The notes under the pieces were generated by a model, which made no database searches, was not told where the DNA came from, and saw only the letters and a program-made list of their open reading frames with translations. Below are positions 20,251-44,066 of a DNA stretch of 64,000 nucleotides, piece by piece. Every line of letters begins with the position of its first letter. Position 1 is the stretch's first letter. The stretch is from Acinetobacter portensis (GTDB lineage Bacteria; Pseudomonadota; Gammaproteobacteria; Pseudomonadales; Moraxellaceae), in assembly GCF_023158935.1 (NCBI RefSeq), contig NZ_CP096120.1, positions 1,736,001 through 1,800,000 on the forward strand, in the 5' to 3' direction. The position numbers and the translations under genes were made by a program.

Positions 20251-20324
20251 GGCGGGGTGGCAGAGTGGTCATGCAGCGGACTGCAACTCCGTGTACGCCG
20301 GTTCGATTCCGACCTCCGCCTCCA
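20251..20324 (+). tRNA. tRNA-Cys (GCA)
   Basis: A 74-nt cloverleaf with encoded CCA. The acceptor arm is GGCGGGG with CTCCGCC, the anticodon loop CTGCAAC gives anticodon GCA, and the T-arm contains GTTCGATTC. It is followed 12 bp later by tRNA-Leu. In E. coli the same two tRNAs form glyW-cysT-leuZ; no tRNA-Gly is seen here. Confidence 0.97.
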
Positions 20325-20336
20325 TCTTGTTAAAAT

Positions 20337-20422
20337 GCCCGAGTGGTGAAATCGGTAGACACAGGGGATTTAAAATCCCCCGCCCACAAAGCGTGCCAGT
20401 TCGAGTCTGGCCTCGGGCACCA
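20337..20422 (+). tRNA. tRNA-Leu (UAA), copy 1
   Basis: An 86-nt class II tRNA with encoded CCA. The acceptor is GCCCGAG with CTCGGGC, the anticodon stem GGGGA/TCCCC holds loop TTTAAAA (anticodon TAA in DNA), and a long variable arm follows. It is identical to the tRNA at 42777-42862. Confidence 0.97.
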
Positions 20423-20457
20423 TTCTTCTACTACAGAAAAATGGTGCAATAAAATTT

Positions 20458-20479
20458 CCAGCTATATGCTGGTTTTTTT
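20458..20479 (+). terminator. tRNA unit terminator
   Basis: CCAGC-TATAT-GCTGG followed by seven T. Confidence 0.9.
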
Positions 20480-20525
20480 ATGCCTGAAATTTATAAAAAT
20501 AATAAAAATATCTAAACGCAAAAAA

Positions 20526-27914: not shown

Positions 27915-28702
27915 GGTGGTGTTTCCAAAAGTATGCTGAAATTAAATGAAGCCATTATTGATATAAAAGAAGGTTAAGTCGAAGGCTTTAAAATGGTTTT
28001 CAAGCTTTTTCGAAAAATTACAACTTTTCCTAAAACTACGTCTAATTCGATGCCTTATTTTACAATTATTTCCTTCAATACCTACAGTAAAAAACTTACC
28101 AATACTTTGCTTACAGTTTTTAAAGGCAGTCACAAAACTATCCCAGTGATCACTTGAAATTCGGGTGTAGTGAACACCTAATTGCTTTAACTTTGCCTTC
28201 AATCGTTGGACTGTCGCCAGATCTCGTTTACCCCAAACATAAGCAACAATTTCACCTGTTTCTCTATGGTATGCGTAAATAAGCCATTGTTTATTCTTTT
28301 TATTTCCTACAAAAGTCCAAAACTCATCAACCTCAATAGATTCATAATAATTTTGCTTAGGGCGAATTTTATAAGTGGATTTACTTAATGTTCGTAAAAC
28401 CTTACCTATGCTGACACGCTCGGTTTCTGCAATATCTCTTATACCACCCCCTCTAACCATCAGGTGGAGTATTTTATTTGTTATACCAGAATGACAACCT
28501 CGGTAACTAAGAGCATGATCCCCAATAAACTGACGCTTGCAGTTTTTACATTGATAGTTTTGCTTACCATTTAGTTTGAAGCCATTTTTCTTTATACTGT
28601 CACTTCGACAGGTTGGACATTTGATTTCTAGTGTTATTTGCATCTCACTATTTTATCAAAAGCCAACCTGTTTTTTTTCAGCATACTTTTTGAAACACCA
28701 CC
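27915..28702 (-). mobile_element. IS1-family insertion sequence, complete
   Basis: A 788-bp element bounded by 27-bp terminal inverted repeats with one mismatch, both starting GGTGGTGTTTC (27915-27941, and 28676-28702 on the minus strand). It encodes a single intact transposase on the minus strand. The flanking 8-9 bp (AACCATTT on the left, TAAATTAC on the right) do not match, so the usual target duplication is absent. The right end abuts the truncated IS5-family gene. Confidence 0.9.
27942..28643 (-). CDS. IS1-family transposase (single frame)
   Basis: A 233-residue DDE transposase. An N-terminal zinc-ribbon (CPTCRSDSIKKNGF and CKNCKRQF, residues 9-40) is fused directly to the catalytic part: Asp in SIEVDEFWTF, Asp in SSDHWDSF and Glu in VGIEGNNCKIRHRIRR. 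The ending RKSCNFSKKLENH is typical of IS1. Classic IS1 needs a frameshift to join InsA and InsB, whereas this copy is one open frame, as in many other members. It appears intact. Confidence 0.92.
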   Translation of the reverse strand: MQITLEIKCPTCRSDSIKKNGFKLNGKQNYQCKNCKRQFIGDHALSYRGCHSGITNKILHLMVRGGGIRDIAETERVSIGKVLRTLSKSTYKIRPKQNYYESIEVDEFWTFVGNKKNKQWLIYAYHRETGEIVAYVWGKRDLATVQRLKAKLKQLGVHYTRISSDHWDSFVTAFKNCKQSIGKFFTVGIEGNNCKIRHRIRRSFRKSCNFSKKLENHFKAFDLTFFYINNGFI

Positions 28703-29344
28703 TAAATTACTTACGCTGTTATAGAACTCAAATTGAGTTATCCGCCGACTATAACCTAGCTGAAAGTAATGTGAATCGTACGATTCAGAAAGTTGAAAAT
28801 GCTCTGATTCAATCACGGATTTTCGCATTGCCTAAAAGGAGTCAAAAGTTTAGTGAGGAGGATTATGTAATCGTTGATGTCACTGAGTCACAGATTGAGC
28901 GTCCCAAAAAAACAAAGAAAATTCTATAGCGGTAAAAAGAAGAAACATACGCTAAAAACACAGGTCATTTTTAACCCAAAATTAAAGCAAATTGTAAGTA
29001 TACAGATTGAAGATGGCAGAAAACACGATCTGACGATTGCGCGTAAGTATTTGAAGGAGATGGTCATTTATCCTTGTATCATGGCAGATTTAGCCTATAA
29101 AGGATTTCATCAGATTAAGAGTAAGTTACTCATTCCAATCAAGAAACCTAAGAATTTATCATTACCCCAAATAGCAAAACAGATCAACCAAGAAATCAGT
29201 CGGCGTAGGATCACAATTGAACATATCAACGGCAAACTTAAACATTTTCGGATATTAACAGAACGCTATAGAAATAGACGGAAACGCTTTGGTCTAAGAA
29301 TGAATTTAATTGCTGGAATGGTGAATTGGATGCTCTTAAATTAA
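28703..29344 (+). pseudogene. IS5-family transposase, 5'-truncated and frameshifted
   Basis: Two overlapping frames together make the C-terminal two thirds of an IS5-type DDE transposase. The first reads YRTQIELSADYNLAESNV through VDVTESQIERPKK; the second continues with RKFYSGKKKKHTLKTQ, ADLAYKG and the ending HFRILTERYRNRRKRFGLR. The frames join at a run of seven A (28906-28912); one A fewer would restore the frame. Some IS5 subgroups use programmed frameshifting, so this may be a natural slippery site, but the missing first 70-80 residues already make the gene defective. Confidence 0.82.
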
Positions 29345-40084: not shown

Positions 40085-40636
40085 ATGAAAAACCAATTAC
40101 GTATTATTGGTGGCGAATGGAAACGTCGCCAACTCCCTTTTGCAAGTATTGAAGGCTTACGCCCTACACCCGACCGTGTTCGCGAAACCTTATTTAACTG
40201 GCTCATGTGGGACATTCAAAACACCAATGTTTTAGATATTTGTGCAGGTTCTGGCGCACTTGCTTTTGAAGCCTTATCACGTGGTGCAAGCCAAATAGTT
40301 ATGATTGAACCAAATGCTCAACAAGCTAAATTTTTAAAAGATAATTTAGAACTTTTGAAAGTAACCAATCAACGTGCAAAGCTTAAAATTGCAACTGCAC
40401 AGCAAACCTTACCAACATTAAAAGATCAATTTGATGTGGTTTTTTTAGATCCCCCATATAGCTTAGATTTATGGGAAGAATTAGCAGTACTTGCAGATCC
40501 TTTAATAAAAAATGATGGCTTTATTTATATTGAAGCTGACCGTGATTTATCACAGTTAAAAATTCCATCAAGCTGGATTCAAATTAAAAATACCAAAGCT
40601 GGTACCGTTCGTGCGGGCTTATATCAGAAGAAGTGA
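40085..40636 (+). CDS. rsmD: 16S rRNA guanine-966 N2-methyltransferase RsmD
   Basis: Methylates G966 of 16S rRNA in the assembled small subunit. Motif RIIGGEWKRRQLPF at the N-terminus, RPTPDRVRETLFNWL, SAM site VLDICAGSGALAFEALSRGA and catalytic VFLDPPYSL are all present. 183 residues, close to E. coli (198). Nine bp after mrdA on the same strand. Ends at a strong bidirectional terminator. Confidence 0.95.
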   Translation: MKNQLRIIGGEWKRRQLPFASIEGLRPTPDRVRETLFNWLMWDIQNTNVLDICAGSGALAFEALSRGASQIVMIEPNAQQAKFLKDNLELLKVTNQRAKLKIATAQQTLPTLKDQFDVVFLDPPYSLDLWEELAVLADPLIKNDGFIYIEADRDLSQLKIPSSWIQIKNTKAGTVRAGLYQKK

Positions 40637-40652
40637 TCATAAAAATTAAAAG

Positions 40653-40682
40653 AAAAAAGGATGCTTAAGCATCCTTTTTTTA
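40653..40682. terminator. Bidirectional terminator
   Basis: AAAAAAGGATGC-TTAA-GCATCCTTTTTT, perfect stem, between convergent rsmD and the lipoprotein gene. Confidence 0.95.
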
Positions 40683-41147
40683 TACCGATGGTCGAAGTGG
40701 TCTTTGCGCATTTGGTAAACCTTGCTGTCTAGGATAATTCGAATTCAAGCTTGGTTTATTTACACTTGGTTTTTGCCCTGAATGATTTGGTTTGTCATTT
40801 GGCTTATGATTTGGTTTGTGCTGCGATGGTTTTTGACCTTGGTGATTTGGCTTGTGTTCAGAAGGACGATTAAGCGATGGTCTATTCACAGGCGGACGAT
40901 ACACTGGCGGTTTGTTGCCCTGAAAATTAGGTTTGGTTTGATGAGGCTTAGGCTTCTGCTGATGAGGACGATCATTTGGTCGATAGTTCGGTCTATAATT
41001 AGGTCGATGAGTCGCACCATTATTCCAATGAGGTCGATCATAGGAGTTGTAACCACCTGAATAATGAGGGCGGTCATCATAAGGTGCCATTACACAGCCT
41101 GTTAAAGAAAACCCAAGTGCCGATAACAATATTATTTTTTTAATCAT
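40680..41147 (-). CDS. Pro/His/Asn/Lys-rich low-complexity lipoprotein
   Basis: A 155-residue predicted lipoprotein with lipobox LTGC (Cys18). The mature part has almost no globular sequence: it consists of degenerate short units such as RPNYRPN, KPHQTKPN, NRPSLNRPS and HKPNHK, rich in Pro, His, Asn, Lys and Arg. Such chains are extended and may bind metal through His or thread through peptidoglycan, but that is speculation. AGGG lies upstream of the ATG. The opposite strand has a long open frame that is a composition artefact. Confidence 0.75.
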   Translation of the reverse strand: MIKKIILLSALGFSLTGCVMAPYDDRPHYSGGYNSYDRPHWNNGATHRPNYRPNYRPNDRPHQQKPKPHQTKPNFQGNKPPVYRPPVNRPSLNRPSEHKPNHQGQKPSQHKPNHKPNDKPNHSGQKPSVNKPSLNSNYPRQQGLPNAQRPLRPSV

Positions 41148-41356
41148 GTGAAAAACCCTAAAATTCTATTTCCAAATTATGAAATACACACATGAATAGA
41201 TCGGGGATTGGTTGTTTTATTTATGTAGAAATTCATTCATATTTTGCTCATATTATGCAAAACATATCTTTAATAGAAATAACAAAATTCAATTTAAAAC
41301 TAATAATTTAAATAAGATGGATTAAAATTAAGCCAAATAATTATGCTGTTAATTTT

Positions 41357-42091
41357 ATGACTTGGCTTATTTTTATCATTGGTTCTGTAATTGCTGGCTT
41401 TGTACAAGGCTTAACAGGCTTCGCCTTTGGCTTAGTCGCCATGTCCTTCTGGGTTTGGGTATTAGCACCTCAACTCGCAGCACCATTAGTGGTCTTTGCT
41501 TCGTTGTGGAGTCATATGATTTCACTATCTAGCGAAAAGAAAATCTATAAATTTAATAAATCTTTAGTTCTACCTTATATTTTAGCAGGCTTAATTGGTG
41601 TTCCTATTGGTACATGGCTACTCGACTTAATACAACCTGAAATATTCAAACTTGTATTGGGTGTATTTTTAATTATTTGGAGTCCCTTAATGCTGTTTAA
41701 TCCTCAATTTTCCATCATAAAAAATGCAGGAAAATTAGCAGATAGCTGTATTGGCTTTATTGGTGGAGTTTTAGGAGGATTAGGCGGTTTTAGTGGTGCA
41801 GTGCCTTCTGCATGGGTCATGCTCAAAAATTTAAATAAAGATAAACAACGCTACATTATGCGTCACTTCAATTTCTCAATTCAGCTTTCTGCAATGACTG
41901 CTTATTTAATTAAAGGAAATATACAAAGCGAACATATCCCCTATCTTGCAATTCTTGTTTTTAGTGTCAGCATTCCTGCTATTTTTGGTGCTAAATTATT
42001 TTATAAAATTTCAGACACTCAATTCAAAAAAGTAGTACTTGGTTTGTTATTTACTTCAGGAATTTTCATGTGCTTAAGCCTTTTAATTTAA
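41357..42091 (+). CDS. TauE/SafE family sulfite/anion exporter-like permease
   Basis: A 244-residue inner-membrane protein with about eight hydrophobic segments. The opening GFVQGLTGFAFGLVAMSFW and the half-repeat GFIGGVLGGLGGFSGAVPSAW are the two inverted-repeat signatures of TauE/SafE permeases. Members move sulfite, sulfoacetate or other small anions; the substrate here is unknown. Single gene. Confidence 0.87.
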   Translation: MTWLIFIIGSVIAGFVQGLTGFAFGLVAMSFWVWVLAPQLAAPLVVFASLWSHMISLSSEKKIYKFNKSLVLPYILAGLIGVPIGTWLLDLIQPEIFKLVLGVFLIIWSPLMLFNPQFSIIKNAGKLADSCIGFIGGVLGGLGGFSGAVPSAWVMLKNLNKDKQRYIMRHFNFSIQLSAMTAYLIKGNIQSEHIPYLAILVFSVSIPAIFGAKLFYKISDTQFKKVVLGLLFTSGIFMCLSLLI

Positions 42092-42101
42092 AGCTAATAT
42101 A

Positions 42102-42521
42102 TTAAAACCGTTTAGACCAAAAAAAACGAACCATTTGTCCTCGATCATAAGGAAAGCTTGAAACATACTCATAGCCCACTTTATTAACTGGATCTAATTT
42201 AAATTCCATTCCATAACCAAAAGAAACAGCAAAATCATCTACTCCTACATCGTGTGTTTGCCCTGCCATAAATTTATTTTGGGCACCATCAAAACTATAT
42301 GCTGTATTGTTATATACACGCACAACCTCATCTTCGTAGAAATTATTATTTATAAAACTATAATCTCTTTGCTCTTCATCATATTTCTCTAAATTTTTTT
42401 TTTCCTTTTCTTGCACTTCAAATATCGTTTCTTTTGTTTCTTCTACTTTTATATTTTCTTCTGCTGCATTCAATACAAAGCTATAGCAACTCAATAAAAA
42501 TAAAATGAGATACTTTTTCAT
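42102..42521 (-). CDS. Exported protein of unknown function
   Basis: I do not recognise this gene. It encodes 139 residues with a clear signal peptide (about 1-20, cleaved near LNAAE). A very acidic Lys/Glu-rich stretch (21-50) looks helical or disordered. The remaining 85 residues alternate aromatic and polar residues (VSFGYGMEFKL, KVGYEYVSSFPYDRGQMVRFFWSKRF), which suggests beta structure ending in an aromatic residue, as outer-membrane or surface proteins often do. GAGG precedes the ATG. AT-rich codons. Confidence 0.7.
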   Translation of the reverse strand: MKKYLILFLLSCYSFVLNAAEENIKVEETKETIFEVQEKEKKNLEKYDEEQRDYSFINNNFYEDEVVRVYNNTAYSFDGAQNKFMAGQTHDVGVDDFAVSFGYGMEFKLDPVNKVGYEYVSSFPYDRGQMVRFFWSKRF

Positions 42522-42738
42522 ATTTTCCTCATTTAAAATTTATAGAAATTCAAACAACAACGCATGTAAACCTAGAGTTTATAAATTACCATTATAAAAG
42601 CGAGTATTTTACATCGACAATATAATCATAAAATTCTAACAATTACGTATAAAACGGGTTAAATCTTCTGTTATTTTATATTTTTCAACCATAACGCAAT
42701 TATTTGATTGAAAAGAAAGCAATTGATTAGAAATACAC

Positions 42739-42767
42739 TTGCCAAGTTTTATTTCGTCCTCTATTAT
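42739..42767 (+). promoter_or_regulatory. Own promoter of tRNA-Leu copy 2
   Basis: TTGCCA (42739-42744), a 17-bp spacer, TATTAT (42762-42767), ending only 9 bp before the mature tRNA. Transcription would begin with a leader of two or three bases. Confidence 0.68.
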
Positions 42768-42776
42768 TGCGCACAT

Positions 42777-42862
42777 GCCCGAGTGGTGAAATCGGTAGAC
42801 ACAGGGGATTTAAAATCCCCCGCCCACAAAGCGTGCCAGTTCGAGTCTGGCCTCGGGCACCA
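42777..42862 (+). tRNA. tRNA-Leu (UAA), copy 2
   Basis: An 86-nt tRNA with encoded CCA, identical to copy 1 at 20337-20422. It is alone here, with no tRNA-Cys upstream. Confidence 0.97.
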
Positions 42863-42897
42863 TTCTTCTACTATAGAAAAATGGTGCAATAAAATTT

Positions 42898-42919
42898 CCA
42901 GCTATATGCTGGTTTTTTT
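42898..42919 (+). terminator. tRNA-Leu copy 2 terminator
   Basis: CCAGC-TATAT-GCTGG followed by seven T, the same as in copy 1. Confidence 0.9.
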
Positions 42920-42951
42920 ATGTCTAAAATTTAGTGCTAGTATTAATTTTT

Positions 42952-43623
42952 ATGTCTAATCATTTTAATTTAAAAGAATTACAACAACGCCATCCTGAAG
43001 CTTTTTTTCAACCTTTGCATTTTGCCCAATTAAAACTTCCTTTTTACCACTCATTTCATATCATCAATTTTGCCATCATTTTTTTAACTGCAATTAGCAC
43101 AGTTATGCTTTGCTTAGGTTTTGCAATACTTATATCTGATACTTTTCGATTTGATATTCTCCAAGCACTTACGTTATCTACTATTTTATTTGCTTTTATT
43201 CAATTTCCATTTCAGTTTTGGATTCAACAACAAGCAAAACACTGTTCGAAATTTTACGCTCAAAGACTTCAAAATGCTTTATATATACAAATCCTTATCA
43301 TTATTCTCTTCGTATTAAACTACTTCATATTAGATAGTCCACACCTGTATTTTCCAAGCTTGGTATTATTCTCTTTTTTTGGTTATGTCGTTATTTTTAT
43401 TGAGCCTCTATATAAAAACACCCCACGTTTAGAAATAGTGCGCTTACACAAAATTCGTCAAATGGCATTTTGGGCTTTTCAACAAACTAAAAATAACTCA
43501 GCACAACCAACACACTATTATTTAGATTTATACAATAAATGTATGCTTGAAGAACAAAAGCTCTCAAAGCAAATACTTCACCCAAATTTTATATCTGCAA
43601 TTATTACACTTCTAAAAACATAA
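42952..43623 (+). CDS. Membrane protein of unknown function
   Basis: A 223-residue protein with four hydrophobic segments at about 36-63, 72-93, 115-132 and 138-154, and hydrophilic ends. The C-terminal 70 residues (RLHKIRQMAFWAFQQTKNN through QILHPNF) are probably cytosolic. No known family is recognised. I use the ATG at 42952 (MSNHFNLKEL), about 30 bp after the tRNA-Leu terminator; the frame is open slightly further upstream. Its promoter is not obvious, so it may depend on readthrough from the tRNA promoter. Confidence 0.68.
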   Translation: MSNHFNLKELQQRHPEAFFQPLHFAQLKLPFYHSFHIINFAIIFLTAISTVMLCLGFAILISDTFRFDILQALTLSTILFAFIQFPFQFWIQQQAKHCSKFYAQRLQNALYIQILIIILFVLNYFILDSPHLYFPSLVLFSFFGYVVIFIEPLYKNTPRLEIVRLHKIRQMAFWAFQQTKNNSAQPTHYYLDLYNKCMLEEQKLSKQILHPNFISAIITLLKT

Positions 43624-43650
43624 ACCCTGCAAATGCAGGGTTTATTTTTA
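43622..43650. terminator. Bidirectional terminator
   Basis: AACCCTGCA-AA-TGCAGGGTT followed by TATTTTTA; between convergent genes. Confidence 0.88.
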
Positions 43651-43651
43651 A

Positions 43652-43966
43652 TTACCATTCACGGGTGGCAACCAACTCTTCCATCTCAATATCCATATAG
43701 CCTTGATCTTGAACCACCATCATCATAGCCTCAGCTATATAATCTGCCGCAGTATCATCTAAAGATGAATCTAAATCTTCAAACTGAGGTTTCATTTTAT
43801 TAATTTCTGTAATGGTTTCTTGAGCAAAATGATAAATATCATTTTCACTTAAGTTTGACTTAGCAACTTTCTTCGCAAATTTTTTAATGCTTTCTCTCAC
43901 TTCAGCAACCAGTACATCTGGATAATATTCATCATCAAACATTGGGAGAAGTAAATCATTCAACAT
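43652..43966 (-). CDS. DUF5713-like acidic protein
   Basis: A 104-residue acidic, helical protein. The phrase FDDEYYPDVLVAEVRESIKKF near the start and EEMD-rich C-terminus fit the small DUF5713 family, whose function is unknown. The ATG at 43966 is preferred; one at 43978 would add four residues. Encoded between the tRNA-Leu region and folP. Confidence 0.7.
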   Translation of the reverse strand: MLNDLLLPMFDDEYYPDVLVAEVRESIKKFAKKVAKSNLSENDIYHFAQETITEINKMKPQFEDLDSSLDDTAADYIAEAMMMVVQDQGYMDIEMEELVATREW

Positions 43967-44066
43967 AATACAGCTCAAACTTATAGCATTTCAGAAAACC
44001 GAGCTTATATACCACATACTCGCCCGTTTAACCAAATCTAAATAAAAATACCACTATTATATCAAT

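Follow-up and report, generated by a model that had tools for sequence, protein, structure and literature searches.

The Acinetobacter genome analysed here carries two transcription units for tRNA-Leu(UAA), and comparison across the genus suggests that the second (copy 2) arose long ago by duplication of the 3' part, without promoter, of a tRNA-Cys/tRNA-Leu(UAA) operon. The duplicated module would comprise the tRNA, a hairpin that pairs its CCA end, an AU linker, a terminator and a post-terminator element. Copy 2 appears to have its own promoter of the stable-RNA type, so near that the transcript is probably pppAU-tRNA, and episodic recombination between the copies would homogenise the module. 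In most precursors the trailer is predicted to fold back on the acceptor end, forming a hairpin from A73 that pairs the CCA and may delay 5' cleavage by RNase P. We put the probability of this explanation as a whole (old duplicate, close promoter, episodic conversion and a CCA hairpin delaying RNase P) at roughly 0.55. The duplicate, its promoter spacing, the concerted evolution and the covarying hairpin emerge from comparing sequences, and the role in RNase P cleavage is what we infer. The unexpected part is the CCA-pairing trailer hairpin; an old duplicate homogenised by episodic gene conversion is nothing unusual.

The window, i.e. the whole stretch of 64,000 nucleotides that was analysed, holds the following features.

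20251..20324, + strand: tRNA-Cys(GCA), first gene of the copy 1 operon (ARAGORN)
20337..20422, + strand: copy 1, tRNA-Leu(UAA), CCA encoded (ARAGORN, BLAST)
20419..20445, + strand: copy 1 CCA-end hairpin, A73 and CCA paired with the trailer; possible GC extension 20417-20447
20458..20479, + strand: copy 1 intrinsic terminator, CCAGC..GCTGG followed by T7 (from the sequence)
20480..20493, + strand: copy 1 post-terminator element ATGCCTGAAATTTA, conserved in both units
42706..42720, + strand: copy 2 upstream element GATTGAAAAGAAAGC, a candidate Fis-like site (conservation in 96 genomes)
42739..42744, + strand: copy 2 -35 box TTGCCA (TTGCCA in 82/96 genomes)
42762..42767, + strand: copy 2 -10 box TATTAT (TATTAT in 77/96 genomes)
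42768..42776, + strand: copy 2 discriminator, rich in GC, and putative leader of 2 nt TGCGCACAT; transcript predicted to begin with A at 42775
42777..42862, + strand: copy 2, tRNA-Leu(UAA), CCA encoded (ARAGORN, BLAST)
42859..42885, + strand: copy 2 CCA-end hairpin, GC extension 42857-42887 (full-precursor fold, z, covariation)
42888..42897, + strand: copy 2 AU-rich linker, candidate RNase E site (from the sequence; RNase E role presumed)
42898..42919, + strand: copy 2 intrinsic terminator (from the sequence; folds in the precursor)
42920..42933, + strand: copy 2 post-terminator element ATGTCTAAAATTTA, conserved in both units
42952..43623, + strand: neighbour ORF without a Pfam match, of a family that recurs in relatives

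BLAST of 42775-42920 against its own genome (self-match 100%) returned 20335-20480 as a repeat of 146 nt with one mismatch (99%), as a sequence-only reading of this DNA had reported. That reading placed the left edge of the shared stretch two bases 5' of the tRNA and concluded that a gene minus its promoter had been copied, and both points hold. Its right edge, set at the terminator, has to be moved, since the likeness extends ~14 nt beyond (42920-42933, 12/14 identical). A third match (G000:C1:1568970; 76%, partial, 65 nt) falls inside a tRNA-Leu(UAG) gene. The post-terminator element, ATG[CT]CT[AG]AAATTT, stands right after the T-run in both units and genus-wide, and also after several other tRNA terminators here. 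E. coli leuZ carries the similar GTGCCTGCAACTT, and a like sequence follows the E. coli rrnB T1 terminator.

How old is the duplication? We examined 99 genomes of the genus, the window's own included. The unit was found in 98, and 33 were re-searched for unlisted places. From the 136 stretches extracted for comparison, both copies were recovered in 96 genomes; no pair came from G030 (second copy truncated where its contig stops), G063 (unit interrupted by contig ends) or G076 (no match). Both tRNA-Leu(UAA) copies are thus present in 96/99 genus genomes. One tRNA-Leu(UAA) lies at most 40 nt from tRNA-Cys in all 97 genomes with extracted units, folD is found upstream of copy 1 on the copy 1 stretch in 96/96, and the copy 2 stretch carries DUF5713, folP or ftsH in 62/96. 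Outside the genus the picture is different. The family sample held 119 genomes, 26 of them in the genus; among the other 93, 79 gave a match, and exactly one match was found in 73 of these 79. In the 18 of these 79 outgroups taken for locus comparison, tRNA-Leu(UAA) stands behind tRNA-Cys without exception (18/18). Since the match outside the genus is single, and lies behind tRNA-Cys in the outgroups, sequence comparison identifies copy 1 as ancestral and places the origin of copy 2 in the stem or early base of Acinetobacter.

The distance between the copies varies widely. All copies share one stretch in 58/96 genomes, with 0.4-8.3 kb from first to last, and occupy separate stretches in 38; in the window's genome they are 22.4 kb apart. 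In 11 genomes where a single contig carries both copies, these occupy opposite strands and are separated by ~0.9-1.9 Mb, and in many species the copies have been moved apart by rearrangement. Here the 22 kb separating them (window 20481-42738) hold lon, mrdA and transposase genes, with one transposase ORF of the IS1 family and another DDE transposase ORF at 27942-29344. The IS1 part matches an Acinetobacter plasmid with 99.8% identity over 53% of the query; of the plasmid records matching it, 197/201 are from Acinetobacter.

Exceptional genomes illustrate how the number of copies changes. The single match of G125 has an outgroup-like spacer, and represents either the pre-duplication state or a loss. 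G174 also has a single match, with the upstream side of copy 1 (tRNA-Cys) and the downstream side of copy 2 (DUF5713-folP-ftsH). Such hybrid flanks are expected from recombination between two direct repeats, which here probably deleted the interval together with one copy. Three copies of tRNA-Leu(UAA) are present in G001, G050 and G090, and in G001 and G090 the third lies ~155 nt behind copy 2.

The sequence-only reading had proposed that copy 2 is a recent copy, or a product of phage or island integration at a tRNA 3' end. The near identity of the copies in the window's genome (1 mismatch in 146) and the transposase genes between them (27942-29344) do point that way. Against a recent phage or island insertion, or a recent local copy, stand the presence of both copies in 96/99 genomes, the conservation of the copy 2 promoter in 96/96 and the conserved flanks described above (folD for copy 1; DUF5713, folP or ftsH for copy 2). 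Furthermore, no integrase domain was found among the window neighbours at 40085-43978 (RsmD, extensin-like, TauE, DUF5713 and two ORFs without a Pfam match) or among seven representatives of the neighbour and interval ORF families in relatives. The representatives scanned, all from common interval and neighbour families, match PhoD, glycerate kinase, WYL, CNNM, RDD or nothing. Copy 2 is a complete gene with a promoter, not an att-type 3' tRNA fragment. We consider a recent insertion or recent local copy extremely improbable and retain an old duplication.

We also considered an origin by tandem duplication of tRNA-Leu together with the downstream ORF at 42952. ORFs of this family lie between the copies, or 5' of copy 2, in many relatives, and in some genomes that have one between the copies another follows copy 2. 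We rejected this origin: deep lineages of the folD tree have two tRNAs, and the ORF is absent from the stretches seen. As these lineages carry two tRNAs without a 42952-family ORF, the tRNA was probably copied first.

Copy 2 was said to have a good promoter, and this proved correct: TTGCCA (42739-42744) and TATTAT (42762-42767) are 17 nt apart, with 9 nt left to the tRNA. Among the 96 genomes, the -10 box of the best copy 2 promoter ends exactly 9 nt 5' of the tRNA in every one (96/96), within the ~7-15 nt from the mature 5' end that we took to mark a near-leaderless tRNA, and the hexamer spacer is 17 nt in 95/96. The near-leaderless tRNA suggested earlier is thus implied by promoter position in 96/96 genomes. 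Just 5' of copy 2, conservation is 1.00 for C(-3), 1.00 for A(-2) and 0.98 for T(-1), and position -4 varies (0.62). Transcription of copy 2 probably starts at A(-2), which would give the leader AU and the primary transcript pppAU-tRNA. Farther upstream, between -73 and -55, 16 of 19 positions are 82-97% conserved (96 genomes). This element (42706-42720) resembles the Fis-site pattern and is a candidate Fis site; a Fis gene is present in this genome. Together with the discriminator, the candidate Fis-like element and the Fis gene make copy 2 look like a gene with a stable-RNA promoter.

Is such a short spacing peculiar to copy 2? Of 33 tRNA transcription units in this genome, 15 have a good promoter with 7-15 nt between its -10 box and the tRNA; among 200 shuffled versions of the upstream sequences, the mean was 1.1 and the maximum 5. 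By this count, a short distance from promoter to tRNA is typical of the genome and no oddity of copy 2, and near-leaderless tRNAs may be common in it. For RNase P, A(-2)U(-1) is described as the optimal end of a leader, and a two-nt leader lowered kcat 4.6-fold (PMC9433436).

The trailers of the two copies evolve in concert. In these comparisons, G001 and G090 are represented by the promoter-bearing second copy, whose trailer runs into the third copy and so raises the own distance, and G050 by its last copy. Mean trailer distance between copies 1 and 2 is 0.187 when both come from one genome and 0.316 when they come from different genomes; none of 10,000 permutations reached so low a value. 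For a given copy 1, the median number of other genomes whose copy 2 is nearer than its own is 4.5, where ~47.5 would be expected. Without conversion, a genome's own copy 2 should be as distant as any other, in contrast to the 0.187 vs 0.316 observed. The effect is seen in close pairs (own 0.140, between 0.308) and in far pairs (0.258 and 0.321), each with 0/10,000 permutations as low. The own distance differs between close and far copies by the Mann-Whitney test (p 2.8e-5; 58 close, 38 far), although independent pairs on the folD tree give no significant difference. In the window's genome the own distance is 0.018, compared with 0.207 and 0.220 to the nearest folD relative, indicating recent homogenisation. 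Mature tRNA bodies are identical between copies in 91/96 genomes (the last copy was used in G001, G050 and G090 here, and the first behind copy 1 in the promoter survey).

Homogenisation is not universal. In only 23/96 genomes is no other trailer nearer to copy 1 than the own copy 2, and only 28/96 (19/58 close, 9/38 far) have an own distance below both orthologue distances to the nearest relative. No conversion is visible in G009, G023, G025, G043, G058 and G060, which are mutually close relatives (own 0.29-0.31; orthologues at most 0.02), nor in G068/G075 (own 0.31; orthologues 0.00 and 0.05), nor among some close-lying copies, e.g. G029/G089 and G004/G062. Homogenised trailers in some lineages and no visible conversion in others fit a gene conversion that comes in episodes. 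The earlier suggestion of ongoing conversion is borne out with this qualification. Two old copies with independently evolving trailers was the pattern that the sequence-only reading set against its own proposal: the copies are indeed old, and independent evolution of the trailers is not seen in most genomes.

Could the trailers be alike through shared constraint on hairpin and terminator, with no gene conversion at all? The hairpin, terminator and post-terminator element are kept in both copies, as such constraint would have it. Constraint alone, however, predicts that the own copy 2 is no nearer than those of other genomes, and 0/10,000 permutations reached the observed difference; moreover, copies without visible conversion differ by ~30% and still keep the hairpin (G009). 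We therefore hold this explanation to be very unlikely and favour episodic gene conversion.

Folding of the precursor yields the cloverleaf followed by a hairpin that starts at A73 and encloses the CCA end (z -4.65, 1/200 shuffles as stable); for the last six tRNA bases plus the trailer, z is -7.65. The hairpin is AU-rich and its stability modest, at -7.2 to -8.6 kcal/mol. A stem that includes the CCA has at least 7 pairs in 160/195 units of the 96 genomes and at least 6 in 184/195 (shuffled, for at least 7 pairs: mean 4.8, max 12). It has fewer than 6 pairs in 11/195 units (both of G032 and of G077, all three of G050, and copy 2 of G004, G014, G081 and G095), indicating that the hairpin is not essential to the genus.

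The distal pairs covary. Pair 5 is canonical in 107/120 distinct trailers (shuffle mean 54.6, max 72) and pair 6 in 95/118 (shuffle mean 51.6, max 63), each with several pair types; pairs 1 and 4 are barely above shuffles because they are almost invariant. These shuffles ignore relatedness, but the slid control does not: 86.3% of cells are paired in register vs 47.6-63.2% when slid by one to three. On the folD tree the state of a pair changed 15-24 times per pair and copy, with unpaired counted as a state. The covariation count left out 11/192 trailers that have no TGGT at the expected place; two of these (G031) form a shorter hairpin, in which TGGT lies closer to the CCA. Comparison among genomes thus leaves the hairpin structure well supported.

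The hairpin is confined to few tRNAs. In this genome only 6/62 tRNA trailers, both copies included, have a stem of at least 7 pairs (shuffled mean 0.75, max 5), and we rejected the idea that all tRNAs carry a CCA hairpin. The stem was found in tRNA-Leu(GAG) at 30/30 best-matching loci of 60 genomes and at 11/20 less similar loci (9 without a 7-pair stem; shuffled 0.9, max 3), i.e. 41/50, and in tRNA-Pro(UGG) in 16/61 trailers (30 best-matching loci of 60 genomes; shuffled 1.7, max 7); the best matches of both are biased to window-like trailers because the query included the trailer. No stem of at least 5 pairs was found in the tRNA-Leu(UAA) trailers of the 18 family outgroups, and no CCA hairpin in the leuZ trailer of one E. 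coli strain. G125 has a stem of 6 pairs and G174 one of 11, so the hairpin possibly predates the duplication. In our survey of open-access papers, no title or abstract opening described a CCA-pairing trailer hairpin.

What would such a hairpin do? RNase P RNA of this genome is of class A and has CGGGUAGG in an aligned conserved stretch, which we take to be the GGU of P15. In bacteria the GGU of RNase P RNA pairs with A73, C74 and C75 of the substrate, and PMC11143913 describes this pairing as essential in cells of E. coli and B. subtilis. In the Acinetobacter precursor, UGGU of the trailer would occupy RCCA, the same bases that this GGU targets, and 5' cleavage would be delayed. The delay is proposed by analogy: RCCA paired with the leader inhibits RNase P, and the discussion of the same paper counts inhibition by 3' trailer sequences among the likely causes of directional processing (PMC9433436). 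Exonucleases (RNase T and PH, whose genes are both present here) would likewise be hindered until the AU linker is cut by an endonuclease, probably RNase E, upon which an exonuclease could open the hairpin. AU-rich trailers have been discussed as targets of RNase E (PMC3985628). The outcome would favour 3'-before-5' maturation.

A bolder version, which we think unlikely, goes further. In tRNA-Leu(UAA), and in tRNA-Leu(GAG) of most species examined, the trailer would act as a cis-acting mimic of the RNase P RNA GGU loop and capture A73-CCA in a hairpin that stacks on the acceptor stem, so that 5' maturation and the supply of leucine tRNA depend on trailer removal, as at a checkpoint. Against the proposed delay as well as such a checkpoint, two substrates with two-nt leaders showed a 3.8- and 7.9-fold higher kcat/Km in vitro once their 3' RCCA was deleted, and one of them was mis-cleaved (PMC9433436); hiding RCCA need not slow RNase P. 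The modest stability of the hairpin also counts against the mechanism. The effect of the hairpin may be a delay, or its role may lie in stability or in a trailer RNA instead.

A serious possibility is that the hairpin plays no part in RNase P timing, its function being to protect the precursor or to serve a trailer-derived small RNA like 3'ETS-leuZ. E. coli has the same tRNA in the same Cys-Leu order, in the homologous glyW-cysT-leuZ operon, and 3'ETS-leuZ, which derives from the trailer of that operon, binds Hfq and PNPase (PMC8294330). The Acinetobacter trailer ends in a terminator with a U-tail, and the finding that loss of RCCA did not slow RNase P (PMC9433436) speaks for this alternative as well. 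It fits less well that the one E. coli leuZ trailer examined has no CCA hairpin, that the stem in Acinetobacter extends into the tRNA itself, and that a similar hairpin occurs in tRNA-Leu(GAG), where the next feature in this genome is tRNA-Met, 47 nt downstream, rather than a terminator. It also fits less well that the main text of the A. baumannii RNA interactome mentions neither tRNA nor leuZ (PMC11472050). We still prefer a hairpin that delays RNase P. If the hairpin gates maturation, the precursor itself would determine which tRNA end, 5' or 3', is processed first, in a genus to which a major hospital pathogen belongs. The two-copy locus is, furthermore, a natural experiment in gene conversion, with copies 0.4-8 kb, 22 kb or about a megabase apart in ~100 species.

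Repeated stable-RNA genes of bacteria are known to evolve in concert through gene conversion, and the Acinetobacter copies follow this pattern in being alike within a genome, different between species, and recombining. They depart from the usual case in that most genomes have only two single-gene units with different promoters, in that trailer and terminator are included, and in that some lineages show no visible conversion. With respect to the leader, Bowden and colleagues reportedly described in 2017 E. coli precursor tRNAs with very short leaders. Copy 2 resembles these precursors and the leaderless tRNAs of Nanoarchaeum equitans (PMC10100707) in that a promoter sets the start a few nt from the tRNA; unlike in N. 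equitans, RNase P RNA is present here, and the Acinetobacter start is predicted from the promoter.

The Acinetobacter trailer itself has two relatives among described systems. Like 3'ETS-leuZ (PMC8294330), it is the terminator-ended trailer of a tRNA-Leu(UAA) behind tRNA-Cys, whereas the E. coli trailer has no CCA hairpin. Like the RNase P anti-determinant in which the leader pairs with RCCA (PMC9433436), it would occupy RCCA by base pairing; unlike there, the partner is the 3' trailer, and the predicted pairing is conserved, with compensatory changes.
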